Positions 3,099-26,446 of a stretch of DNA of 44,827 nt are shown piece after piece (position 1 is the stretch's first letter; each line of letters begins with the position of its first letter). This DNA is from Rhodospirillales bacterium. GTDB taxonomy: Bacteria; Pseudomonadota; Alphaproteobacteria; Acetobacterales; Acetobacteraceae. The stretch is from positions 1 to 44,827 of the forward strand of contig CANFKS010000022.1 in the NCBI GenBank assembly GCA_947447625.1. The letters are read 5' to 3'. A program made the position numbers and the translations under genes. The notes below the pieces were generated by a model that was given only the letters and a program-made list of their open reading frames with translations, did not search any database and was not told the DNA's origin.

Positions 3099-3585
3099 AA
3101 CGGCACGGCTGAGCCTGCGGACACCGCGCCTTGCGGATACCGAGGCGCTGTTTCGCTTCATGGGGGACCCTGCCGTCATGCGGCTCACCCATTGCCACCC
3201 CTCGCTGCGAGCCCTGCGCCGCACCCTCGCCGCCCATGCGTGTCAGCGCGGCAAGACCGGGTTCGGTCCCTGGACGGTGATCGAAACCGCCACTGCCCGC
3301 ATCATCGGCTTCGGCGGGCTTTACGAGGACCCGTTCGATCCCGGCTGGGGTCTGGAGGTCGCTTATTTCCTGGCGCCCGTCGCCCAGGGCCGGGGATTGG
3401 CGCGCGAACTGGTGGCTGCCAGCCTTGCCGCCGCCTGGGCCGGCGGGGCGGCCCGCGTCGATGCGTTCGCCCATCCGGACAACGGGGCGTCCCGCGGCGT
3501 GCTGCTCGCCAGCGGGTTTCGCGAATACCGCCATGTGCCCGAGATGGTGCGCGTCCTCTATCGCCATGACAGACCCGCTTCATAG
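3091..3585 (+). CDS. GNAT family N-acetyltransferase (RimJ/RimL-like)
   Basis: About 164 residues if translation starts at the TTG at 3091, which overlaps the stop of the DapA-like gene by 8 bases. The N-terminus then reads ETARLSLRTPRL, the usual beginning of RimJ/RimL-type acetyltransferases, which is why I prefer it to the internal ATG at 3160. Acetyl-CoA-binding motif A is visible as PVAQGRGLARELV (Q-x-x-G-x-G/A). A later NGASRGVLLASGF segment fits the motif B helix (N...S/A...L...GF). The acceptor cannot be predicted. The overlap indicates translational coupling to the upstream genes. The start codon is uncertain; the family is not. Confidence 0.78.
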   Translation: MPETARLSLRTPRLADTEALFRFMGDPAVMRLTHCHPSLRALRRTLAAHACQRGKTGFGPWTVIETATARIIGFGGLYEDPFDPGWGLEVAYFLAPVAQGRGLARELVAASLAAAWAGGAARVDAFAHPDNGASRGVLLASGFREYRHVPEMVRVLYRHDRPAS

Positions 3586-3634
3586 CGGCATGATGGTTTC
3601 CCACGTCCCGGCAAAACCTGTCACACTGCGAATC

Positions 3635-4690
3635 ATGGACATCCCGCCCTCCCGTCCGACCTCCTCCCTCGATGCCCGCGCTTCCGCGGTGCTGCGCGAA
3701 ATCGTCGAGCAATACGTCGAAACCGGCGAGCCCGTGGGCAGCCGCACGCTGTCCCGGCGGTTGCCGATGGGGCTGTCGCCGGCCACGATCCGCAATGTGA
3801 TGTCCGATCTCACGGATGCGGGCCTGCTTTTTGCGCCCCACACCTCGGCCGGCCGCCTGCCGACCGATCTGGGCCTGCGGCTGTTCGTCGACGGGCTGTT
3901 GCAATTCGGCGAACTGACCGAGACCGAGCGCGAGTCGATCTCCGCCAAGCTCGCCCTCTCCGGGCGCAGCATGGAAGATACGCTGACCGAGGCCTCCGCC
4001 ATGCTCTCAGGCCTTTCGGCCGCCGCGGGCATGGTTCTGGCGCCGAAATCCGAGGGCCCGCTGCGCCACATCGAATTCGTCCCGCTCGGTCCGGGGCGGG
4101 CCCTGGTGATCCTCGTCAACGCCGAGGGCCATGTCGAAAACCGGGTGATCGCGATCCCGCCGGGGATGCCGCCCTCGTCCCTGCAGCAGGCGAGCAATTA
4201 TCTCAATTCCCGCCTCACCAACCGCGCGCTGCCTGAACTGCGGCAGATCGTGAGCACCGAGATCGCCGAGAACCGCACGGAGCTTGATGCGCTGTCGGAG
4301 AAAATCGTCGAAGCCGGCCTCGCCACCTGGACCTCCGAAGGCCGCGGCGGCTCGCTCATTGTGCGGGGTCAGGCCCGTTTGCTTGCCGATATCACCCAGA
4401 TCGAGCGGCTTTCCGCCATCCAGAACCTGTTCGAACGGCTCGAAACCCAGGAGACCATGCTGCGCCTGCTCGAACTCGCCGAGGGATCCGAGGGCGTGCG
4501 CATCTATATCGGCGCGGAAAGCAGCCTGTTCGGCACATCGGGCGTCTCGATGGTGGTGGCGCCGGCGCGCAATGCCGCCAACCGCATCGTGGGCGCCATC
4601 GGGGTGATTGGCCCCACCCGGATCAACTACGGCCGCATTATACCGGTGGTCGACTACACCGCACGGGTCATCGGCCGCCTTCTCGGATAG
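3635..4690 (+). CDS. hrcA: Heat-inducible transcriptional repressor HrcA
   Basis: A 351-residue protein beginning with a winged-helix domain (residues about 10-80) containing the hallmark HrcA segments EPVGSRTLSRR, SPATIRNVMSDL and GLLFAPHTSAGRLPTD. The rest is the GAF-like effector domain. HrcA represses heat-shock operons through CIRCE operators and is stabilised by GroEL. It is followed by grpE, dnaK and dnaJ, the usual partners. The reading frame is open far upstream into the GNAT gene; the ATG at 3635 gives the family length. I searched by eye for the CIRCE pattern (TTAGCACTC-N9-GAGTGCTAA) upstream of hrcA, grpE and dnaK and saw none, so its targets are probably elsewhere (for example groESL). 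Confidence 0.95.
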   Translation: MDIPPSRPTSSLDARASAVLREIVEQYVETGEPVGSRTLSRRLPMGLSPATIRNVMSDLTDAGLLFAPHTSAGRLPTDLGLRLFVDGLLQFGELTETERESISAKLALSGRSMEDTLTEASAMLSGLSAAAGMVLAPKSEGPLRHIEFVPLGPGRALVILVNAEGHVENRVIAIPPGMPPSSLQQASNYLNSRLTNRALPELRQIVSTEIAENRTELDALSEKIVEAGLATWTSEGRGGSLIVRGQARLLADITQIERLSAIQNLFERLETQETMLRLLELAEGSEGVRIYIGAESSLFGTSGVSMVVAPARNAANRIVGAIGVIGPTRINYGRIIPVVDYTARVIGRLLG

Positions 4691-4747: not shown

Positions 4748-5362
4748 ATGAGCACCGAACACACGATCCCCGATCCGAACGCTCCCGCCGCGACATCCGG
4801 CGAGAGCATCTCCATCGAGACGCCGCCCCCGGCGCAGGATGATCCGCCTGCCGATCCGCGCATCGCCGAGATCGAGGCCGATCTCGCCGAGATGAAGGAT
4901 CGCTGGATCCGCGCCGAGGCCGAGACCCAGAACGTGCGCGCCCGCGCCAAGCGCGATGTCGATGATGCGCGGCAATATGCCGTGCAGGGCTTCGCAAAGG
5001 ATGTCGCCGAGGCGGCCGAGAATATTCGCCGCGGCATCGATGCGATGCCCCCCGCGGGCGATAACGAGATCATCGAAAAGCTGCGCAACGGGTTCATCGG
5101 CGTCGAGCGCAGCTTTCTCGGGCTGCTCGAACGCCACGGCATCAAATCGCAGGATCCGACCGGCGCGCTGTTCGATCCCAATCTGCACCAGGCGATGCAG
5201 GAGCAGGAATCGGCCGACCATCCGGCGGGGACCGTGCTGCAAGCCTGGACCCAGGCCTGGACGCTGCATGGCCGGCTGCTGCGCCCCGCCATGGTGGTGG
5301 TTGCCAAGGCCCCAGCCGCGGCGCTGGGTGGCGAAGCCTCCGTGAAAGACGACGACGGTTAA
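4748..5362 (+). CDS. grpE: Nucleotide exchange factor GrpE
   Basis: A 204-residue protein: an acidic, proline-rich N-terminal tail (about 35 residues), a long coiled-coil helix (about 37-90, with AETQNVRARAKRDVDDARQ) and the C-terminal beta domain ending in GTVLQAWTQAWTLHGRLLRPAMVVVAK. GrpE releases ADP from DnaK. It lies 57 bp after hrcA and 133 bp before dnaK, so it can be read with hrcA while dnaK keeps room for its own promoter. No strong ribosome site precedes the ATG; the N-terminal length is normal for the family. The assignment is secure. Confidence 0.95.
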   Translation: MSTEHTIPDPNAPAATSGESISIETPPPAQDDPPADPRIAEIEADLAEMKDRWIRAEAETQNVRARAKRDVDDARQYAVQGFAKDVAEAAENIRRGIDAMPPAGDNEIIEKLRNGFIGVERSFLGLLERHGIKSQDPTGALFDPNLHQAMQEQESADHPAGTVLQAWTQAWTLHGRLLRPAMVVVAKAPAAALGGEASVKDDDG

Positions 5363-5395
5363 CCTTTGATTTGCACAAAATATGCGCACATGGCC

Positions 5396-5424
5396 CTTGT
5401 CCCTGGGCATCGCGCTGAATACAT
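5396..5424 (+). promoter_or_regulatory. Candidate sigma-32 (RpoH) promoter for dnaK
   Basis: CTTG at 5396-5399, a 17-base spacer, then GAATACAT at 5417-5424, roughly 70 bp before the dnaK ATG. Alphaproteobacterial heat-shock promoters have a CTTG -35 core and a C-Y-T-A-T-like -10 at about this spacing. The -35 and spacing fit well, the -10 only partly. This is a visual match only and no transcription start is known. Confidence 0.35.
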
Positions 5425-5495
5425 CGGGGACGTGACACATTCGGGGATCCGGCCGGTGCTTCGGGCTGACCTGATCCGCTAGCAAGGAGACTATC

Positions 5496-7424
<1,929 letters not shown>

Positions 7425-7448
7425 CCTTTCGCGACGATCGTGTAACCC

Positions 7449-7490
7449 GTCGCGCCCGTGCTTCCACGAAGCCGGGCGCGACGTCGTTTT
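7449..7490 (+). terminator. dnaK-dnaJ intergenic hairpin (attenuator or mRNA-stabilising)
   Basis: Arms GTCGCGCCCG-T-GCTTC (7449-7464) and GAAGC-CGGGCGCGAC (7468-7482) pair over 15 bp with one bulged T and a CAC loop, followed by GTCGTTTT (7483-7490). The T run is short, so termination would be partial. It lies 25 bp after the dnaK stop and 60 bp before dnaJ, where a partial terminator or processing barrier would keep DnaK in excess of DnaJ. The structure is seen directly; the role is inferred. Confidence 0.55.
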
Positions 7491-7550
7491 GACGGCCCGG
7501 CCCTGGCTGGGCATTGAGCAGCCGGCTGGACCGGACCGAAGAGGACTGAG

Positions 7551-8696
7551 ATGGCGAAACCTGATTACTACGCCACCTTGGGCGCCGCCCGGGAGGCCAG
7601 CGCCGATGACCTCAAGAAGGCATATCGCAAGGCCGCGATGCAGTATCACCCCGATCGCAACCCGGGGAATCCGGCAGCCGAGGCCAAGTTCAAGGAGGTC
7701 AACGAGGCCTATGACGTCCTGAAGGACGAGCAGAAACGCGCGGCCTATGACCGCTTCGGCCATGCCGCGTTCGAAAACGGCGGGGGGGCGCAGCAGCCTG
7801 GTTTCGGCGGCGGGGAAGGCCTCGGCGATATCTTCGATCAGATGTTCGGCGAATTCATGGGCGGCAACGGCGGTCGCGGGAGGCGGGGCCCGCGCGGCGG
7901 GGCCGATGTGCGCGCCGGCGTCGAGATATCGCTTGAGGAGGCGTTCAAAGGGGCCAAGCGGACGATCCGCGTGCCGACGCGGGTGGCGTGCGAGGCGTGT
8001 GTCGGCACGGGTTCGGAATCAAAGGAAAAAGGCAGCGAGACCTGCACCGGGTGCGGCGGCGCCGGAAAGGTGCGGGCGCAGCAGGGGTTCTTCATTGTCG
8101 AGCGGACCTGCCCGACCTGCGGCGGCGCAGGGCGCGTGGTGCGCAATCCATGCCGCATCTGTGCCGGGGCCGGCACCGTGCAGCGCGAGCGTTCGCTCAG
8201 TGTCGATATCCCCGGCGGTGTCGAGGATGGCACGCGGATCCGGCTTACCGGGCAGGGCGAGGCCGGCGGTCCTGGCGCGCCGGCGGGGGATTTGTATGTG
8301 CATGTCGGCGTGCAGGCGCATGAGATCTTCCAGCGCGAAGGCGCCAATATCATGTGCCATGTGCCGATCCGCATGACGCAGGCAGCCCTGGGCGCGGAGG
8401 TTGAGGTGCCGTCGATCGACGGGTCGAAGGCGCGGGTGAAGATCCCGGCGGGCACGCAGACCGGGGCGCAGTTCAGGTTGCGCAGCAAAGGGTTCTCGGT
8501 GCTGCGCTCGAACCAGCGCGGCGACATGTTTATCCAGATCGCGGTTGAAACGCCGCAGCACCTCACGCCGGGGCAGCGCGACCTGCTCGAAAAATTCGAG
8601 GGCGAGGCGCAGGGGCATCACAAGGGCTCACCGGAGACGCATGGGTTCTTTGCCAAGGTTCGGGAGTTTTTTGATCGGAATACGAAGGCGGGGTAG
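7551..8696 (+). CDS. dnaJ: Chaperone protein DnaJ (Hsp40, type I)
   Basis: A 381-residue type I DnaJ. The J domain (residues 1-70) has the HPD motif in [12 protein letters not shown] Gly/Phe-rich linker follows (about 75-125). The zinc-finger region has four CxxC pairs (CEAC, CTGC, CPTC, CRIC; about residues 145-205). The C-terminal substrate-binding domains include [18 protein letters not shown]. It stimulates the DnaK ATPase and delivers clients. It is translated from an ATG shortly after an AGAGGA site. It converges with the GNAT gene at 8713 with only 16 bp between stops, leaving little room for a terminator. Confidence 0.97.
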
Positions 8697-8712
8697 GAGA
8701 AGAAAGCCCTCC

Positions 8713-9270
8713 TTACGTCCCCGTCGGCACCCAGAATACCAATTGCAGCTCCCGCGGAAATACCGGATGCGTGTCGCTCCGTTCCAGCACTCCGTCGGCG
8801 TTTTCGATGATCCGGCGTGATGCGACGTTGTGATCCGAGCAGGTGATCATCACCCGAGCGAGGCCCACTTTCCCGGCTTCGATGAGCATCAGCCGCAGGG
8901 CGGCGGTGGCGTAGCCGCGCTGGCGTTTCCAGGGCACCACGGCGTAGCCGATATGGCCGAGGACGTAGGGCGGCAACGCCTCGGTGCCAGGCTGGTGGCG
9001 AAATCCGATCGACCCGCAGAAGGTGCCATCGGAGATCCAGTGCCGGAAGCCGGGGAGTTTGGGGACAACGCGGCCGTCGTGCAGGGTGATGGTGCCGGTC
9101 TGGTCGAGTTGGCTGGCGAGGAAGGCGGCCGAATCGGCGCGGAGGGCGGCGAGTTGCTCGGTGCTGACATCGCGGGTGTTGTCGGGCGACCAGCCCTGTT
9201 CGAGAGCAGTTGCGTAGCTGTCGAGCAGTTCGAAGCAGGGCGGAACGAGGCTTATGAGATGGGCCGCCAC
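8713..9270 (-). CDS. GNAT family N-acetyltransferase
   Basis: A 185-residue protein. The start is the GTG at 9270: reading the minus strand, a full AGGAGGT ribosome site lies about 5 bases upstream, which overrides the longer open frame that continues to 10092 and is only antisense to the RraA-like gene. Acetyl-CoA motif A appears in VPWKRQRGYATAALRLML (R-x-x-G-Y-A), with GHIGYAVVP before it and a CSDHNVASRRIIENAD segment after it, as in RimJ/RimL-like enzymes. The acceptor is unknown. It is divergent from the RraA-like gene, with 81 bp between starts that must hold both promoters. Confidence 0.82.
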   Translation of the reverse strand: MAAHLISLVPPCFELLDSYATALEQGWSPDNTRDVSTEQLAALRADSAAFLASQLDQTGTITLHDGRVVPKLPGFRHWISDGTFCGSIGFRHQPGTEALPPYVLGHIGYAVVPWKRQRGYATAALRLMLIEAGKVGLARVMITCSDHNVASRRIIENADGVLERSDTHPVFPRELQLVFWVPTGT

Positions 9271-9351
9271 GCGGACCTCCTGGTGTTGCGAGGCATGAAT
9301 TTGGCGCAAGCGGGGTGGCGCTGCTAGCCTGGACAAAACCGGAGGATGCCG

Positions 9352-10065
9352 ATGACCGAATTCACCGCCGCATGCACCGCGCGCCTCAAGCGGGTGAGCA
9401 CAGCGACGATCACGACGCAGTTGTTCAAGCGCGGCTTGCGCAACTGCTTCATCCAGGGGGTCCGCCCGCTCGGTGTGCTGGGCGAGAACATGGTGGGGCC
9501 GGCTTATACGCTGCGCAATATCCCTTCCCGCGAGGATCTGGATCATGTCGGGGTGTTTGCCAATCCGGAGCATCCGCAGCGCAAGGCGGTTGAACAGGCG
9601 CCGGCGGGCCGGGTGCTGGTGATAGATTGCCGCGGGGATACGCGGGCGGCGTCGGGCGGTGAGATTCTGATGACGCGCCTCACGATAAGGGGCGCGGCGG
9701 GGGTGGTCAGCGATGGCGGGATGCGCGATGCGGCGGCGATCGGGCGGATGACGCTGCCGGTCTATTGCGCGGGGCCGTCGGCGCCGCTCAATCTGGCGCG
9801 ACATCATGCGGTGGATATCGACGTGCCGATCGCATGCGGGGGCGTGCCGGTCTATCCGGGCGACATGGTGGTGGGGGATGCGGATGGGGTTGTCGTGATC
9901 CCGGCGCATCTGGCGGAGGAGGTGGCGCGGGATTGCGCGGAGCAGGAGGTGCTGGAGGAATTCCTGTTGACCCGCATCCAGGGGGGGGCGCGGCTGCCGG
10001 ACACCTATCCGCCGAACGAGGAGACCAAGGCTGCGTTCGAGGTGTGGCGCCGCGCGCGCGAATAA
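9352..10065 (+). CDS. RraA-family protein / HMG-CHA-type aldolase
   Basis: A 237-residue protein of the RraA/4-hydroxy-4-methyl-2-oxoglutarate aldolase fold. The family core GVVSDGGMRDAAAI (residues 117-130) retains Arg125-Asp126, and GGVPVYPGDMVVGDADGVVV (163-182) is the C-terminal signature. Retention of the Arg-Asp pair favours a metal-dependent aldolase/oxaloacetate decarboxylase over the RNase-inhibitor paralogue. Two in-frame ATGs occur at 9346 and 9352. GGAGG (9341-9345) directly abuts the first, so the second, 6 bases downstream, is the better start. It lies 81 bp upstream of glcB on the same strand, so a link to glyoxylate/pyruvate metabolism is possible but not shown. Confidence 0.82.
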   Translation: MTEFTAACTARLKRVSTATITTQLFKRGLRNCFIQGVRPLGVLGENMVGPAYTLRNIPSREDLDHVGVFANPEHPQRKAVEQAPAGRVLVIDCRGDTRAASGGEILMTRLTIRGAAGVVSDGGMRDAAAIGRMTLPVYCAGPSAPLNLARHHAVDIDVPIACGGVPVYPGDMVVGDADGVVVIPAHLAEEVARDCAEQEVLEEFLLTRIQGGARLPDTYPPNEETKAAFEVWRRARE

Positions 10066-10146: not shown

Positions 10147-12312
10147 ATGGATCATGTGCCGGCCCATGGCGTTCATGTCTCGCGCCTTTTGAAGGATTTC
10201 ATCGACACCGAGGCTCTGCCGGGCACTGGGGTCGACAGCACTGCCTTCTGGTCCGGGCTGGCCAAGATCGTCGATGCGTTTGCGCCCAGGAATGCGGCGC
10301 TGCTGGCCAAGCGGGATGATTTTCAGGCGCAGATCGATGCCTGGCATTTGGCGCGGCGTGGGCAGGCGATCGATGCGGCCGAATATGCCGATTTTCTCCG
10401 CGGCATCGGCTATCTGTTGCCGGCGCCGGCGGCATTCAGCGTGGCGACGGAGAATGTCGACCCCGAGATCACCTCGATCGCCGGGCCGCAGCTTGTCGTG
10501 CCGGTCAGCAATGCGCGCTATGCGTTGAATGCCGGCAATGCGCGCTGGGGCAGTCTGTATGACGCGCTCTACGGCACGGATGCGATTGGCGAGGAGGACG
10601 GCATGGAGCGGGCGGGGGCGTATAACCCGGTTCGTGGGGCCGCGGTGGTGGCCAGGGCGAAGGCGGTGCTGGATGGCGCGGCGCCGCTGGTGCAGGCGAG
10701 CCATGCGGATGTGACGGGGTATGCGATCATCGGCGGGGTGTTGCAGGCGAGCCTGAACAGCGGGGCGACGACGACGCTCGCGGCAGCGGGCACGCTCGCG
10801 GGCTATCAGGGCGAGGCGGCGGCGCCGTCGGCGATCTTGTTGAAGAACCATGGCTTGCATATCGAGTTGCGCATCGACCGGTCGCATCCGATCGGATCGA
10901 CCGACGCGGCAGGGCTTGCCGACGTGGTGTTGGAATCGGCGATCACGACGATCATGGATTGCGAGGACAGTGTCGCGGCAGTGGATGCCGAGGACAAGGT
11001 CGAGGTGTATCGCAATTGGCTCGGCCTGATGAACGGCACGTTGTCGGCCGATCTGGAAAAGGGCGGGCGCAAGATCACGCGGCGGCTCAATCCGGACCGG
11101 GCGTATACGAGCCCGTCGGGCGAGACCGTGACGGTGGCGGGGCGGTCTTTGATGCTGGTGCGCACTGTCGGGCATCACATGTTCACCGACGCGGTGACGA
11201 ATGACGAGGGGGACGATATTCCCGAGACGATCCTCGATGCGGCCGTCACGTCCCTGATCGCGCTGCATGATCTCAAGGGCACGCATGCGCTGCACAACAG
11301 CCGGGCCGGCTCGGTCTATATCGTCAAGCCCAAGATGCATGGGCCGGACGAGGTGATGTTCGCGTCGGATCTGTTTGCCGCCGTAGAGGACATGCTGGGC
11401 ATGGCGCGCAACACCCTCAAGATGGGGATCATGGACGAGGAGCGGCGCACCACGATCAATCTCGCCGCCTGTATCCATGCCGCTCGGGAGCGGGTGGTGT
11501 TCATCAACACGGGCTTCCTCGATCGCACCGGCGATGAGATCCATACCTCGTTCGAGGCTGGGCCGATGATCCGCAAGAACGACATGCGGGCGGCGGCCTG
11601 GATCGGGGCGTATGAGAACAACAACGTCGATGTCGGCCTGCACAGCGGGTTGCGCGGGCGGGCGCAGATCGGCAAGGGGATGTGGGCGGCGCCGGACCGG
11701 ATGGCGGACATGCTGGCGCAGAAGATCGGCCATCCCCGCGCCGGGGCAAATACGGCGTGGGTCCCCTCGCCCACGGCGGCGACGCTGCATGCGCTGCATT
11801 ATCACCAGGTCGATGTCGCGGCGCGGCAATCCGAGTTGGCGGACCGGGTGCCGGCCGATCTCGGTGCGATCCTGACGATCCCGCTGGCGGACCGGCCGAA
11901 CTGGTCGGCCGAGGATTTGCAGCAGGAACTCGACAACAACGTCCAGGGCATCCTGGGCTATGTGGTGCGCTGGATCGACCAGGGCGTGGGCTGCTCCAAG
12001 GTGCCGGATATCCATGATATCGGGCTGATGGAGGACCGCGCGACGTTGCGGATTTCGAGCCAGCATATCGCGAACTGGCTGCATCACGGCATCGTCACCG
12101 AGGCGGCCGTGATGGATACGCTGCTGCGGATGGCGGGCGTGGTCGATCGGCAGAACGAGGGCGATCCGCTCTACACGCCGATGGCGCCGGCGTTCGACGG
12201 GGTGGCGTTCATGGCGGCGTGCGATCTGATTTTCAGGGGGCGCAGCCAGGCCAACGGATACACCGAGTTCGTGCTGCATGCCCGGCGCAAGGAAGCGAAG
12301 GCCAACCGGTAG
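10147..12312 (+). CDS. glcB: Malate synthase G
   Basis: A 721-residue protein, the normal length for the G isoform (isoform A is about 530). Recognisable blocks are [19 protein letters not shown] (about residue 262), [19 protein letters not shown] (about 385), [18 protein letters not shown] with the glyoxylate/Mg region, and [20 protein letters not shown] near the C-terminus. It condenses glyoxylate with acetyl-CoA to malate in the cytosol, completing the glyoxylate bypass or glycolate use. GAGGT lies 5 bases before the ATG. No isocitrate lyase gene is in the window. A MaoC-like gene begins 11 bases after the stop. Confidence 0.97.
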
Positions 12313-14193: not shown

Positions 14194-14198
14194 GAAGG

Positions 14199-14323
14199 AA
14201 GGGCTTCTTTTTTGAAAAAAAGAAGCAAAAAACTTTCCCCCGTTTTGGACGATGCTATGTCGCCCTTGCTGAACGGATAAAGTTTTTTTGCTTCTTTTTT
14301 TCCAAAAAAAGAAGCCCTTGCTT
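14199..14323. repeat. Tail-to-tail pair of poly-A/T palindromes (copies 1 and 2)
   Basis: Copy 1 (14199-14238, plus orientation) has arms GCTTCTTTTTT (14203-14213) and AAAAAAGAAGC (14216-14226), then AAAAAACTTT. Copy 2 (about 14275-14323) is the same element inverted, including a shared flank that reads ATCCGTTC in element orientation. Each copy begins just after a stop codon: copy 1 after the SDR gene, copy 2 after korB. The two copies can also pair with each other as one long hairpin around a 40-base spacer. It probably acts as the bidirectional terminator for the convergent genes; it also looks like a REP-type dispersed repeat. Confidence 0.8.
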
Positions 14324-15377
14324 ACCGCAGCGACGCGTTCAACTTCTCAAGCGCCGCCGACCCCGGACACAGCATATCATCGTTCATCCCATTGAGCGGA
14401 TGCTGCGCGGTGCCGAGCAGGTCATGCATGTCGCCGGACTCACCGTCCACATAAAGCAGGCCGGTGACGATTTCGCCGCGGGCGTGATGTTGCTGCAGGA
14501 AGTTCATCGCGGCGATGCGGTCGGTGGCGTCGTAGTCGTTGGCGAGTTTGCGCAGCTTGAGCAGCGAGCCGTCGTGCTGGCGGACGATTTCGACGGAGCC
14601 GGCGGGGTAGTCGGCGGTGATCTCCTCGCGGCCTTCGATGACGTCGAGGAAATTCACGGCGGCGTTGTGTTCGCGGACATAGTCGAAGCTTTTGGTCGAA
14701 CCTTCATGGTTGTTGAAGGTCACGCAGGGGCTCAGGCAGTCGATGAAGGCAGCGCCTTTGTGGGCGAGCGCGCCTTTGATGAGGGGGATGAGCTGGGCTT
14801 TGTCGCCGGAGAAGCTGCGGCCGACATAGGTGGCGCCGAGTTGCAGGGCGACGGCGACGAGGTCGATGGCCTCGTCGTTGTTGGCGACGCCCTTTTTCGA
14901 CTTGGCGCCCTTGTCGGCGGTGGCGGAGAACTGGCCCTTGGTGAGCCCGTAGACGCCGTTGTTTTCAACGATATACGTCATGTTGACGCCGCGGCGGATG
15001 GAGTGGGCGAACTGGCCGAAGCCGATCGAGGCGCTGTCGCCGTCGCCGGAGACGCCGAGGTAGATGAGGTCCCGGTTGGCGAGGTTGGCGCCGGTCAGCA
15101 CCGAGGGCATGCGGCCGTGGACGGAGTTGAAGCCGTGCGAGTTGCCGAGGAAGTAGGTCGGCGTTTTCGACGAGCAGCCGATGCCGGAGAGTTTGGCGAT
15201 GCGGTGGGGCGGCAGGTCGAGCTCGAAACAGGCATGGATGATGGCAGCCGAAATACTGTCATGGCCGCACCCGGCGCAGAGGGTCGAGATCGAGCCCTCA
15301 TAGTCGCGGCGGGTGAAGCCGAGGCCGTTTTCGGCGAGCTTGGGGTGGTGGAGCTTGGGCTTGGGAAGAAAGGTCAT
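14322..15377 (-). CDS. korB: 2-oxoacid:ferredoxin oxidoreductase, beta (TPP) subunit
   Basis: A 351-residue beta subunit. The thiamine-diphosphate motif is GDGDSASIG followed by VENNGVYGLTKGQ. Cysteines in CAGCGHDSI (about residue 34) and GIGCSSKT (about 67) are the usual 4Fe-4S ligands. The family oxidatively decarboxylates 2-oxoacids to acyl-CoA while reducing ferredoxin; the sequence most resembles 2-oxoglutarate (KorB) types, but 2-oxoacid choice is not certain. Its ATG overlaps the korA stop (ATGA), so it is translationally coupled. It ends at an inverted hairpin facing the SDR gene. Confidence 0.9.
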   Translation of the reverse strand: MTFLPKPKLHHPKLAENGLGFTRRDYEGSISTLCAGCGHDSISAAIIHACFELDLPPHRIAKLSGIGCSSKTPTYFLGNSHGFNSVHGRMPSVLTGANLANRDLIYLGVSGDGDSASIGFGQFAHSIRRGVNMTYIVENNGVYGLTKGQFSATADKGAKSKKGVANNDEAIDLVAVALQLGATYVGRSFSGDKAQLIPLIKGALAHKGAAFIDCLSPCVTFNNHEGSTKSFDYVREHNAAVNFLDVIEGREEITADYPAGSVEIVRQHDGSLLKLRKLANDYDATDRIAAMNFLQQHHARGEIVTGLLYVDGESGDMHDLLGTAQHPLNGMNDDMLCPGSAALEKLNASLR

Positions 15378-17212
15378 GATACGGCCTTCCGGAGCGGAAC
15401 GATTTTGAGGGAAGCGGCGGTGTCTTCGATGGCGCCGGCGATGAAGGAGGCGGTGATCGGCGAGCCGTCATAGTGCAGGACACGCTGGAGCTTCTTCGGG
15501 TTGATTTCCAACTCGTTGATCAGCAGCGTGCGCATCTGGGCGTCACGGTTTTGTTCGACGACGAACACTTGGTCGTGTTCCTCGATGAATGTCTCGACTT
15601 CGGCGCCAAAGGGGAAGGCGCGGATGCGCAGCGCGTCGATGGCGATGCCCGTGGCGGCGAGCATGTCGATCGCCTCGTCCATCGCAGGCGCCGTGGAGCC
15701 GAAATAGATGGCGCCGAGTTTGGTGGCATCCTTCGCGTCGCGGCGGATGGCGGGGGGGACGATGGTGGCAGCGGTGCGGAACTTCTTGAGCAGACGCTCC
15801 ATGTTGTCCTGGTAGGCCGCGCCCTCTTCGGTATAGCGCGCATAGCGGTCGCGCGAGGTGCCGCGGGTGAAGAAACTGCCCTTGGTGGGGTGGGTGCCGG
15901 GGTAGGTGCGGTAGGGGATGCCATCACCGTCGACGTCGAGGTAGCGACCGAAATCGCGGCCGGCGTCGAGTTCGGCGGCGGTCATCACCTTGCCGCGGTC
16001 CATGCGCTTGGTGTCGTCCCATTTGAAGGGGGCGCAGAGGCGGTCGTTCATACCGATGTCGAGGTCGAGCATGACGAAGACCGGGGTTTGCAGACGATCC
16101 GCGAGGTCGAAGGCCTGGGCGCCCATCACGAAGCACTCGTTCGGGTCTTCGGGGAAAAGCAGGATGTGCTTGGTGTCGCCGTGGGAGGCGTAGGCGGCGG
16201 AGAGCACGTCACATTGCTGGGTGCGGGTCGGCATGCCTGTGGAGGGGCCGGCGCGCTGGACGTCGAACAGCACGGCGGGGATCTCGGCGAAATAGGCCAG
16301 GCCGAGGAATTCCTGCATCAGGGAAATGCCGGGGCCGGAGGTTGCGGTGAAGGCGCGCGCGCCGTTCCAGCCGGCACCGATGACCATGCCGATGGAGGCA
16401 AGTTCGTCTTCGGCCTGGATGATGGCGTAGCGCTTTTCGCCGGTTTCCTTGTCCTTGCGGAACTTCTCGCAGTATTTGGTGAAGCCCTCGGCGAGGGAGG
16501 TGGACGGCGTGATGGGATACCAGGCGCAGACTGTGGCGCCGCCATAGACGGCGCCGAGGCCGGCGGCGGCATTGCCTTCAAAGAGGATGCGATCGCCGAT
16601 CTGGTCGGCGCGGCGCACGGTGAGGCCGATCGGGCAGGCGAGGTTTTTCAGCGCATAGTCGCGGCCGAGTTCGAGGGCGTTGTAGTTGGCCTGGATCAGC
16701 TTGTCGCGGCCGCGGAACTGTTCGGCCAGCAGGCCCTTGATGGCATCGGGGTCGATGTCGAGCAGGGCCGAGAGGGCGCCGACATAGATGATGTTTTTAA
16801 ACAACTGGCGTTCACGGCTGAGCGTGTACTGCGCGTTGCAGATCGCGGTCAGCGGCACGCCGATGACGTTGACGTCAGCCCGGAACTTCGAGGGCGGGAT
16901 GACGCGGGTTGAATCATAGAACAGGTAGCCGCCTGGGACGATGGACTTGATGTCCTGGTCCCAGGTTTGCGGGTTCATGGCGACCATCAGGTCGGTGCCG
17001 CCGCGGGCGCCCATATAGCCCTTTTCCGAAATCCGCACTTCGTACCAGGTGGGCAGGCCCTGGATGTTGGAGGGGAAGATGTTGCGCGGCGTCGCGGTGA
17101 CGCCCATGCGCAGGATGGATTGGGCGAACAGCTTGTTGGCGCTGGCGGAACCGGATCCGTTGACGTTGGCGAATTTGACGACGAAGTCGTTGACGGCTTG
17201 CAGCTGGCTCAC
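15374..17212 (-). CDS. korA: 2-oxoacid:ferredoxin oxidoreductase, fused gamma-alpha subunit
   Basis: A 612-residue fusion. Residues about 10-190 are the gamma domain (NGSGSASANKLFAQS, YMGARGGTDLM). From about residue 225 comes the alpha/pyrimidine-binding domain (AWYPITPSTSLAEG, ATSGPGISLM, QRAGPSTGMPTRTQQ) and a C-terminal domain with VFVVEQNRDAQMRTLL. The start is the GTG at 17212, which overlaps the upstream TGA (GTGA) and is preceded by GGAGG at about 7 bases. The open frame beyond it is antisense noise. With korB it forms the CoA-dependent oxidoreductase. The gamma-alpha fusion is common for KorA. Confidence 0.9.
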   Translation of the reverse strand: MSQLQAVNDFVVKFANVNGSGSASANKLFAQSILRMGVTATPRNIFPSNIQGLPTWYEVRISEKGYMGARGGTDLMVAMNPQTWDQDIKSIVPGGYLFYDSTRVIPPSKFRADVNVIGVPLTAICNAQYTLSRERQLFKNIIYVGALSALLDIDPDAIKGLLAEQFRGRDKLIQANYNALELGRDYALKNLACPIGLTVRRADQIGDRILFEGNAAAGLGAVYGGATVCAWYPITPSTSLAEGFTKYCEKFRKDKETGEKRYAIIQAEDELASIGMVIGAGWNGARAFTATSGPGISLMQEFLGLAYFAEIPAVLFDVQRAGPSTGMPTRTQQCDVLSAAYASHGDTKHILLFPEDPNECFVMGAQAFDLADRLQTPVFVMLDLDIGMNDRLCAPFKWDDTKRMDRGKVMTAAELDAGRDFGRYLDVDGDGIPYRTYPGTHPTKGSFFTRGTSRDRYARYTEEGAAYQDNMERLLKKFRTAATIVPPAIRRDAKDATKLGAIYFGSTAPAMDEAIDMLAATGIAIDALRIRAFPFGAEVETFIEEHDQVFVVEQNRDAQMRTLLINELEINPKKLQRVLHYDGSPITASFIAGAIEDTAASLKIVPLRKAVS

Positions 17213-19005
17213 GCGAGCGCCTCCACTTTGGCCGGGACAGGGTTGACCTGAGCCATGTCGAGCAGAAAGCGCTGCATATCCCAGGCGCCGGTGGGGCATC
17301 GCTCGGCGCACAAGCCGCAATGCAGGCAGACATCCTCGTCCTTGGCCATGATGCGGCCGGTCTTGAGGCCATCGGAGACGTAGATGTCCTGGCTGATGTT
17401 GTCGGCCGGGGCGTTGAGGCGGCCGCGCAATTCGGCTTCCTCGCCATCCTCGGTGAAGGTGATGCAATCGACCGGGCAGATATCGACGCAGGCATCGCAT
17501 TCGATGCACAGCTTGGGGGCAAAGACGGTCTGCACATCGCAGTTCAGGCAGCGCTGGGCTTCCTTGAAGCCGAGCACCTGGTCAAAGCCGAGTTCGACTT
17601 CGGTCTTGATGTCGACGAGGGAGACCTCCTTGTCGCGGTGCGGCACTTTGAAGCGCAGATCGATCGAGACATCGTTGTCGTAGCTCCACTCGTGGATGCC
17701 CATCTTCTGGGATGCGAGGGTGACGCCCGGCGGCGGACGATCATTGATGTCCTGGCCCTGGCAGAAGCGGTCGATCGAAATGGCGGCCTGGTGGGCGTTG
17801 GAGACGGCCCAGATGATGTTTTTCGGGCCGAAAGCGGCATCACCGCCGAAGAAGACCTTGGGATTGGTCGACTGGAACGTGACGGGATCAACCTTGGGCA
17901 TGCCCCAGCGGTCGAACGCGATGCCGATGTCCTGCTCGATCCAGGGGAAGGCGTTTTCCTGGCCGATGGCGACGAGCACATCGTCGCAGGCGTATTGCAC
18001 GATTGCACCGGTCGGGATCAGGCTGCGGCGGCCCTTTTCGTCGTAGGTGGCTTCAACCTTGTCGAAGCTCATGCCGACGATTTTGCCGTGCTTGTGGATG
18101 ACTTCCTTGGGAACGAGGAAGTTGATGATGGGGATGTCCTCGTGGATCGCGTCCTCCTTTTCCCAGGGGGAGGCCTTCATTTCCTCGAAGCCGGAGCGGA
18201 CGATGACTTTCACCTCGGTGCCGCCAAGGCGGCGGGCGGAACGGCAGCAATCCATCGCGGTGTTGCCGCCGCCGAGCACGATCACGCGCTTGCCGATCGA
18301 GGTGATGTGACCGAAGGACACCGAGGAGAGCCAGTCGATCCCGATATGGATGTTCGCGGCGGAGTCCTGCCGGCCGGGAACATCGAGTTCGCGGCCACGG
18401 GGCGCGCCCGAGGCGACGAAGACGGCGTCGTAACCGTCGTCCATCAGGCCCTTGAGGCTTGAGATATAGGAATTATAGCGGGTCTCGACGCCAAGGTCGG
18501 TGATGTAGCCGACTTCCTCGTCGATCACCGAATCGGGCAGGCGGAACTTGGGGATCTGGCTGCGGATGAAGCCGCCGCCCTTGGGGGCGCTGTCGAACAC
18601 CGTGACCTGGTAGCCGGCGGGCACGAGATCCCGCGCGACGCCGAGACCGGCGGGGCCGGCGCCGACGATGGCCACGCGCTTGCCGTTGCTGGCGAAGGGC
18701 CCCTGCGGCATCAGGCGATGGACGTCGCCCTTGTTGTCGGCGGCGACGCGCTTGAGGCGGCAGATCGCAACCGGCTCTTCATCGACACGGCCACGGCGGC
18801 AGGCCGGCTCGCAGGGCCGGTCACAGGTCCGCCCCAGGATGCCGGGGAAGATGTTGGACTTCCAGTTGACCATATAGGCGTCGTCATATCGGCCGGCAGC
18901 GATGAGGCGGATATATTCGGGGACCGGGGTATGGGCGGGACAGGCCCACTGGCAATCTACGACTTTATGGAAATAGTCGGGATCACGTATGTCGGTTGGC
19001 TTCAA
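17209..19005 (-). CDS. GltD-like FAD oxidoreductase with two C-terminal [4Fe-4S] clusters
   Basis: A 598-residue protein. The N-terminal GltD/DPYD-type iron-sulfur domain has Cys at 18, 22, 61, 65 and 69. The FAD-binding motif is VAIVGAGPAGLG (111-122), the NAD(P)-binding motif VIVLGGGNTAMD (241-252) and the second FAD motif GGDAAFGPKNI (387-397). The C-terminus carries two ferredoxin clusters: CIECDACVDIC (500-510) and CLHCGLCAERC (560-570). It is not glutamate synthase, since no large subunit is present. Coupling to korA (4-base overlap) suggests it shuttles electrons between NAD(P)H and the 2-oxoacid oxidoreductase or ferredoxin. The start is the TTG at 19005; no better in-frame start lies upstream. 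Confidence 0.85.
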   Translation of the reverse strand: MKPTDIRDPDYFHKVVDCQWACPAHTPVPEYIRLIAAGRYDDAYMVNWKSNIFPGILGRTCDRPCEPACRRGRVDEEPVAICRLKRVAADNKGDVHRLMPQGPFASNGKRVAIVGAGPAGLGVARDLVPAGYQVTVFDSAPKGGGFIRSQIPKFRLPDSVIDEEVGYITDLGVETRYNSYISSLKGLMDDGYDAVFVASGAPRGRELDVPGRQDSAANIHIGIDWLSSVSFGHITSIGKRVIVLGGGNTAMDCCRSARRLGGTEVKVIVRSGFEEMKASPWEKEDAIHEDIPIINFLVPKEVIHKHGKIVGMSFDKVEATYDEKGRRSLIPTGAIVQYACDDVLVAIGQENAFPWIEQDIGIAFDRWGMPKVDPVTFQSTNPKVFFGGDAAFGPKNIIWAVSNAHQAAISIDRFCQGQDINDRPPPGVTLASQKMGIHEWSYDNDVSIDLRFKVPHRDKEVSLVDIKTEVELGFDQVLGFKEAQRCLNCDVQTVFAPKLCIECDACVDICPVDCITFTEDGEEAELRGRLNAPADNISQDIYVSDGLKTGRIMAKDEDVCLHCGLCAERCPTGAWDMQRFLLDMAQVNPVPAKVEALA

Positions 19006-26400: not shown

Positions 26401-26446
26401 AGGGCTTCTTTTTTGAAAAAAAGAAGCAAAAAACTTTTATCCGTTC
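26401..26446 (+). repeat. Poly-A/T palindrome, copy 5, inside the leu operon
   Basis: GGGCTTCTTTTTT-GA-AAAAAAGAAGC followed by AAAAAACTTTTATCCGTTC, nearly identical to copy 1 over the palindrome and to copy 2 in the flank. It lies alone between leuD and leuB. Unlike the other four copies, its orientation is opposite to transcription of the gene upstream (leuD), so it is not simply that gene's terminator. It could reduce leuB expression or be a neutral insertion of the repeat. Confidence 0.75.

Follow-up and report, generated by a model that had tools for sequence, protein, structure and literature searches.

The locus described here raises the question of what kind of enzyme is encoded when the gene for a GltD-like flavoprotein, with a ferredoxin domain of its own, directly precedes the genes for the KorA and KorB subunits of a 2-oxoacid:acceptor oxidoreductase, and of what such an enzyme would do in a member of the Acetobacteraceae. 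The genes lie within the window, by which we mean the whole stretch of 44,827 nucleotides that was analysed (contig CANFKS010000022.1 of a Rhodospirillales bacterium). The original prediction proposed that the 2-oxoacid oxidoreductase is linked to NAD(P) by the flavoprotein, its dedicated electron exchanger, and the sequence comparisons reported below support that proposal. The enzyme kind is already known, as the NADP-linked three-subunit 2-oxoglutarate:NADP+ oxidoreductase (KGOR), and the window very probably adds a conserved, ordinary member to it.

Gene organization and conservation

The three genes follow one another on the minus strand without gaps, in the order flavoprotein, KorA, KorB, and each junction is an overlap of four bases (Table 1); all of the open reading frames and both overlaps read as they had been predicted. 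The TTG at the start of the flavoprotein gene is the first start codon past the preceding stop, and this position is almost always (90 % or more) occupied by a start codon when the window is aligned with 40 relatives; the start codons chosen for the flavoprotein in 80 relatives were ATG (33), TTG (29) and GTG (18). With this mechanical choice of starts the flavoprotein and korA genes overlap in 66 of the 80, by exactly four bases in just six, and korA and korB overlap by exactly four bases in 48 of 69 relatives, with an interval of 1195 bases at most. A promoter scan gave one promoter-like site, which is not upstream of the operon (0.9 in shuffles), and a terminator scan gave seven terminator-like sites, all on the plus strand (4.4 in shuffles). 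The paired AT-rich palindromes beyond korB, which lie outside the enzyme genes, possibly act as a two-way terminator.

Table 1. Features of the operon and of its 3′ boundary, in coordinates of the window
Feature	Coordinates	Strand	Remarks
Flavoprotein, GltD-like FAD/NAD(P), with C-terminal 2x[4Fe-4S] ferredoxin domain (probable KGOR FAD subunit)	17209..19005	-	598 aa, TTG start
KorA, 2-oxoacid:acceptor oxidoreductase fused gamma-alpha subunit	15374..17212	-	612 aa, GTG start
KorB, 2-oxoacid:acceptor oxidoreductase beta subunit	14322..15377	-	351 aa, ATG start
GTGA overlap, flavoprotein stop and korA GTG start	17209..17212	-	read in sequence
ATGA overlap, korA stop and korB ATG start	15374..15377	-	read in sequence
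Paired AT-rich palindromes between convergent korB and SDR genes	14195..14323		repeated element of genome

At least 597 relatives of the flavoprotein are present in GTDB contigs, and the best 80 of these, with 72–79 % identity, were analysed. Conservation of the gene order was the second of the two points on which the original prediction had offered itself for refutation, and the order recurs widely: KorA follows the flavoprotein in 80/80 of these relatives and KorB was found in 69/80, and in the remaining 11 no more than 50 bases of sequence are left beyond the KorA match. Plasmid 2 of Aromatoleum aromaticum EbN1 (4890–9594) also carries this triplet, again with two 4-base overlaps. In a phylum-wide sample, 25 of 397 genomes, the window's genome included, have a flavoprotein match at E≤1e-100, and KorA adjoins it at 24/24 of the other loci, which are too short to reach korB. 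Taken with the 18 flavoprotein cysteines that are kept in 106/106 family rows, this conserved order is more than chance.

Among 299 genomes sampled from the order, each of them listed in one family, 76 carry flavoprotein relatives of at least 71 % identity; these carriers are counted by the flavoprotein alone, and two of them (G239 and G273) hold fragments. A total of 126 genomes pass E≤1e-50, and beyond the 76 there are only paralogues of 31–35 % identity, a clear gap. The operon is therefore not odd for the family. The original prediction had set it against a genome whose other genes look aerobic, and 2-oxoglutarate dehydrogenase (OGDH) E1, the sole probe of this aerobic character, is present. 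Among the matches listed, the nearest flavoprotein relatives are labelled Acetobacteraceae, and the same triplet is present at loci from Bradyrhizobium, including one (L042) with the label B. japonicum. Flanks of at least 3 kb extend upstream in 63 and downstream in 53 of the 80 relatives; no flanking protein family, compared by family and not by function, is shared by more than 14 of 82 loci, which suggests that the conserved unit consists of the three genes alone.

The flavoprotein and its cysteines

The flavoprotein has the Pfam domains Fer4_20 and Pyr_redox_2, followed by a C-terminal two-cluster Fer4_7 (residues 500–574). It is under the cut-off of its best NCBIfam model, NF009410 (391.7 of 516 bits), and below those of the GltD models TIGR01316/1317/1318 (266/173.5/201.2 vs 471.75/447.7/482.95 bits). 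Its best solved matches are 9n5u (NfnA), 9bov and 8oh5, and then NfnI chains, dihydropyrimidine dehydrogenase (DPD) and GltD; Fer4_20 and the FAD/NAD(P) core are common to the flavoprotein and the NfnB/GltD/DPD family. An Nfn partner subunit, with its second FAD and [2Fe-2S], is absent among the three genes of the operon.

The N-terminal GltD cysteines (C18, C22, C61, C65 and C69) and the two C-terminal 4Fe-4S motifs (C500/503/506/510 and C560/563/566/570) are where they had been placed, and to these can be added three further invariant cysteines that went unmentioned, C82 and the pair C486/C489, which are possible cluster ligands. Compared with the NfnB/GltD/DPD family, the flavoprotein lacks the CxxC that comes first in the N-terminal domain; this CxxC may sit at C486/C489, directly ahead of the two-cluster ferredoxin domain, and in a weak side alignment (8.7 bits) the CxxC that opens the N-terminal domain of NfnI pairs with these two residues. 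In the alignment with NfnI, Lys85 stands where a Gln/Glu ligand, as assigned in DPD, is usually found, and the invariant Cys82 lies three residues before it. The predicted structure has a mean pLDDT of 61.3, with values below 50 at residues 1–28, 62–82, 486–515 and 557–588; because these stretches hold all of the candidate cluster cysteines except C61, the cluster geometry is unreadable in the model.

KorA, KorB and their probable substrate

KorA contains both POR (19–184) and POR_N (220–387) and so represents fused gamma and alpha subunits; it scores above the cut-off of NCBIfam TIGR03710, the 2-oxoacid:acceptor oxidoreductase alpha subfamily (570.3 vs 482.75 bits). KorB, with the Pfam domain TPP_enzyme_C, is below the cut-off of TIGR02177 (PorB_KorB; 202.3 vs 261.9 bits), but its possession of this domain and of the four ligands of one [4Fe-4S] cluster (C34, C37, C68 and C218, kept in 61/61 rows) suggests a divergent beta subunit. 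For both proteins 6n2n is the solved structure that matches best, with KorA residues 8–574 aligning with chain A; we take 6n2n and 6n2o to be the OGOR of Magnetococcus, a 2-oxoglutarate enzyme. The fused gamma-alpha and beta organization, the YPITP motif and the single [4Fe-4S] cluster in beta are shared with this OGOR and with the Sulfolobus OFOR (5b46–5b48), and to our knowledge the Magnetococcus enzyme is without a flavoprotein subunit. StOFOR uses a separate dicluster ferredoxin (PMC5020499), and in the window's enzyme the C-terminal ferredoxin domain plausibly stands in for free ferredoxin between KorB and FAD.

Residues named in PMC5020499 were mapped onto KorA and KorB through the structure-match alignments. 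T235 (in YPITP), R320 (the carboxylate-binding Arg) and T325 of KorA are conserved in 70/70 rows, and K71 and L145 of KorB, equivalent to StOFOR K49b and L123b, are kept in 61/61. StOFOR R344a is likewise retained along with K49b and L123b, and D468a is replaced by Thr, this residue being T452 of KorA, found in 69/70 rows. StOFOR1 accepts both pyruvate and 2-oxoglutarate, and its K49bI and D468aA mutants lost the 2-oxoglutarate activity and kept that with pyruvate; the 2-oxoglutarate-specific KorAB of H. thermophilus has Leu at the D468a position (PMC5020499). Judged by these comparisons 2-oxoglutarate is likely to be the substrate of KorAB, with T452 counting against it, so that pyruvate or some other 2-oxoacid may be used. 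That the enzyme combines a different 2-oxoacid (pyruvate, branched-chain or aryl) with NADP+ nevertheless seems unlikely: K71 and L145 are as in StOFOR1, which takes both substrates, and the residue needed there for 2-oxoglutarate is Thr, but the KGOR host genus has a similar triplet and the best-matching solved structure of both subunits is one that we take to be a 2-oxoglutarate enzyme. The known phenylglyoxylate:NAD+ oxidoreductase, PadEFGHI, joins an OFOR to a GltD-like NAD-linked subunit, with the subunits separate, and the PadG and PadI models match the window's proteins weakly (46 and 21 bits, with cut-offs of 700), which also counts against a different 2-oxoacid.

Relationship to KGOR and proposed role beside OGDH

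The KGOR of Azoarcus evansii, described by Ebenau-Jehle, Boll and Fuchs in 2003, is reported to have subunits of 63, 62 and 37 kDa, to contain FAD, iron-sulfur and thiamine diphosphate, and to reduce NADP+ and not NAD+; its subunits reportedly resemble three adjacent ORFs of Bradyrhizobium japonicum. The window similarly has a GltD-type FAD/FeS subunit, an OFOR alpha (with gamma) and a beta subunit encoded by three adjacent genes, and the computed masses of the flavoprotein, KorA and KorB (65.7, 67.1 and 37.5 kDa) fit those reported for KGOR. R270 of the flavoprotein is invariant in the alignment of the window with 40 relatives, and this residue, together with the specificity attributed to the A. 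evansii enzyme, suggests a preference for NADP over NAD. Whether such a set has been characterised, which the original prediction left undecided, can be answered in kind: both PMC8163825 and PMC10134865 cite the J Bacteriol paper of 2003 on this A. evansii enzyme. The species is now placed in Aromatoleum (PMC9765128), and PMC10134865 names the KGOR alpha subunit (KGOR-alpha) in one of its lineages of GltD-like homologues. The triplet of the congener EbN1 has 68/67/72 % identity to that of the window; in the family tree it groups among the other members, on a branch that is long and uncertain.

Compared by way of EbN1 and of the description of KGOR, the operon is very probably an ordinary member of this enzyme kind, and since the triplet matches the three-subunit A. 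evansii enzyme, the NAD(P) link that had been proposed is plausible and known in kind. If clusters are bound at C18/C22/C61/C65/C69/C82/C486/C489, the iron content would be above that reported for A. evansii, and this would count against the assignment to KGOR.

With good confidence, then, we read the operon as encoding a cytoplasmic three-subunit CoA-succinylating 2-oxoglutarate:NADP+ oxidoreductase that works in the oxidative direction, as an NADPH route beside OGDH. What was observed is the set of three genes with their domains, the conserved ligands and the order of the genes; from these the reading proposes which substrate and cofactor are used, how the electrons travel, that the subunits form a complex, the direction of the reaction and its physiological role. 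KorA and KorB would decarboxylate 2-oxoglutarate on thiamine diphosphate to give succinyl-CoA, and electrons would exit singly via the KorB [4Fe-4S] cluster to the C-terminal two-cluster domain of the flavoprotein, which would serve as a built-in ferredoxin, and from there to the N-terminal cluster(s) and the FAD, where NADP+ would be reduced. Run in the oxidative direction, this would give the cell a second route, one that yields NADPH, in addition to the NAD-linked OGDH. The possible use in reductive carboxylation that the original prediction had raised is not supported; on general thermodynamic grounds the reducing power of NADPH is too low for the carboxylation of succinyl-CoA, so that this reaction is unlikely with NADPH alone.

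The window's genome (96.36 % complete) contains a complete OGDH E1 (1118 bits), and the operon is therefore an addition. The genome has no match to HGD-D (PF06050, benzoyl-CoA-reductase-type), its best nifH hit (23.9 bits) is below cut-off, and for these reasons, together with the presence of E1, the role proposed for Azoarcus does not simply carry over. The same searches bear on the alternative that the complex acts mainly as a 2-oxoglutarate:ferredoxin oxidoreductase and the flavoprotein balances reduced ferredoxin with NADPH, with a low-potential sink such as benzoyl-CoA reductase or nitrogenase. The korAB genes lie within an anaerobic aromatic-degradation cluster in two R. palustris strains (PMC9973337), and the EbN1 triplet is near acyl-CoA dehydrogenase genes, as such a role would favour, but with neither sink found in the window's genome, a single BadF-type protein (42.7 bits, cut-off 31.5) and the lack of a widely recurring flanking family, we regard this alternative as quite improbable. 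The KorAB proteins of Thauera and Rhodopseudomonas are of the same KorA/KorB class; they are tied to anaerobic benzoate degradation and described as ferredoxin-linked, and the terms 'GltD' and 'KorC' are absent from the main text of that report (PMC9973337).

It could also be that the operon replaces OGDH as a step of the TCA cycle. OGDH E1 is matched at E≤1e-100 in 295 of the 299 genomes (294 over cut-off), and the four that remain are all flavoprotein carriers (p about 0.004, hypergeometric); in one of these, G176 (listed as 100 % complete, 50 contigs), E1 (best 25.4 bits) and E2 (264.7 of 378.65 bits) are both below cut-off. This four-of-four signal mostly dissolves on inspection, because the other three look like assembly gaps: in G157 a piece of E1 (302 bits) lies where a contig ends, the E2 of G238 scores over cut-off (442.8 bits), and G196, an assembly of 770 contigs, retains a scrap of E1 (21.3 bits). 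With a full E1 in the window's genome and an E1 match in 72 of the 76 carriers, replacement of OGDH is very unlikely. G176 remains as a loose end.

A combined proposal, that the operon is the only 2-oxoglutarate-oxidising step in some aerobic Acetobacteraceae (with G176 as the candidate) and that the flavoprotein is a rearranged GltD, is likewise improbable. If it were true, the TCA cycle would give NADPH rather than NADH at the 2-oxoglutarate step, the C-terminal CxxC (C486/C489) would complete the N-terminal cluster and Cys82 would replace the usual Gln/Glu ligand.

On the favoured reading, as a KGOR beside OGDH, an enzyme that was described for the anaerobic degradation of aromatic compounds would be common as a stand-alone module among Alpha- and some Beta/Gammaproteobacteria, frequently together with OGDH, as in most carriers of the family sample; candidates for its role there include NADPH supply, function at low oxygen and bypass of OGDH. 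Among titles and abstracts we recognised no paper on a role of the triplet in aerobes or bacteroids, or as a Pad-like enzyme. In a transcriptome of Methylosinus trichosporium a '2-oxoacid ferredoxin oxidoreductase' is listed as expressed (PMC3615186).

A repeated AT-rich palindrome element

The repeated element consists of two AT-rich palindromes (GCTTCTTTTTTN2-8AAAAAAGAAGC), one at each end of a larger inverted repeat whose interior is short. When the window's own pair was compared with 12 others, chosen as pairs among the matches listed, the arms of all 13 could be aligned, while the interior varied in both length and sequence from pair to pair and the element spanned 99-167 bases. The palindrome is present in 8 of 40 genomes, including the window's own, which has 139 copies as against none for the reversed control; four genomes of the same genus have 216, 21, 11 and 10, and three from other genera 15, 4 and 3. 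The element could be terminator-like or a mobile element of the REP type.

Neighbouring and additional genes

Coordinates of the palindrome element and of other genes and domain matches
Feature	Location	Strand	Remark
hrcA	window 3425-4690
NAD-GH (PF10712) match	window 5142-7763	-	Pfam, 665 bits; ORF antisense to 642-aa ORF
642-aa ORF, probably dnaK	window 5496-7424	+	behind hrcA
Malate synthase G	window 10147-12312	+
Palindrome element	window 14195-14323 and 26404-26427		also at loci L121-L132
DUF6537 match	G000:C66:17173-17799		above cut-off
DUF6537 match	G000:C170:1204-1797		above cut-off

Malate synthase G, encoded near the operon, is an enzyme of the glyoxylate shunt. PF10712 is probably a spurious family built from antisense dnaK frames. 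The two DUF6537 matches, in the window's genome (G000), perhaps represent additional 2-oxoacid oxidoreductase genes, this domain being found in fused indolepyruvate-type oxidoreductases.

The flavoprotein in other genomes

A genome of the same family (G176, listed completeness 100 %) encodes the flavoprotein (73 % identity), and neither the E1 nor the E2 subunit of 2-oxoglutarate dehydrogenase was found in it above the cut-off. In the flavoprotein tree, a contig titled Frankia sp. RB7 (L057) is placed deep within the Bradyrhizobium rows, and this record is likely to be mislabelled or contaminated.
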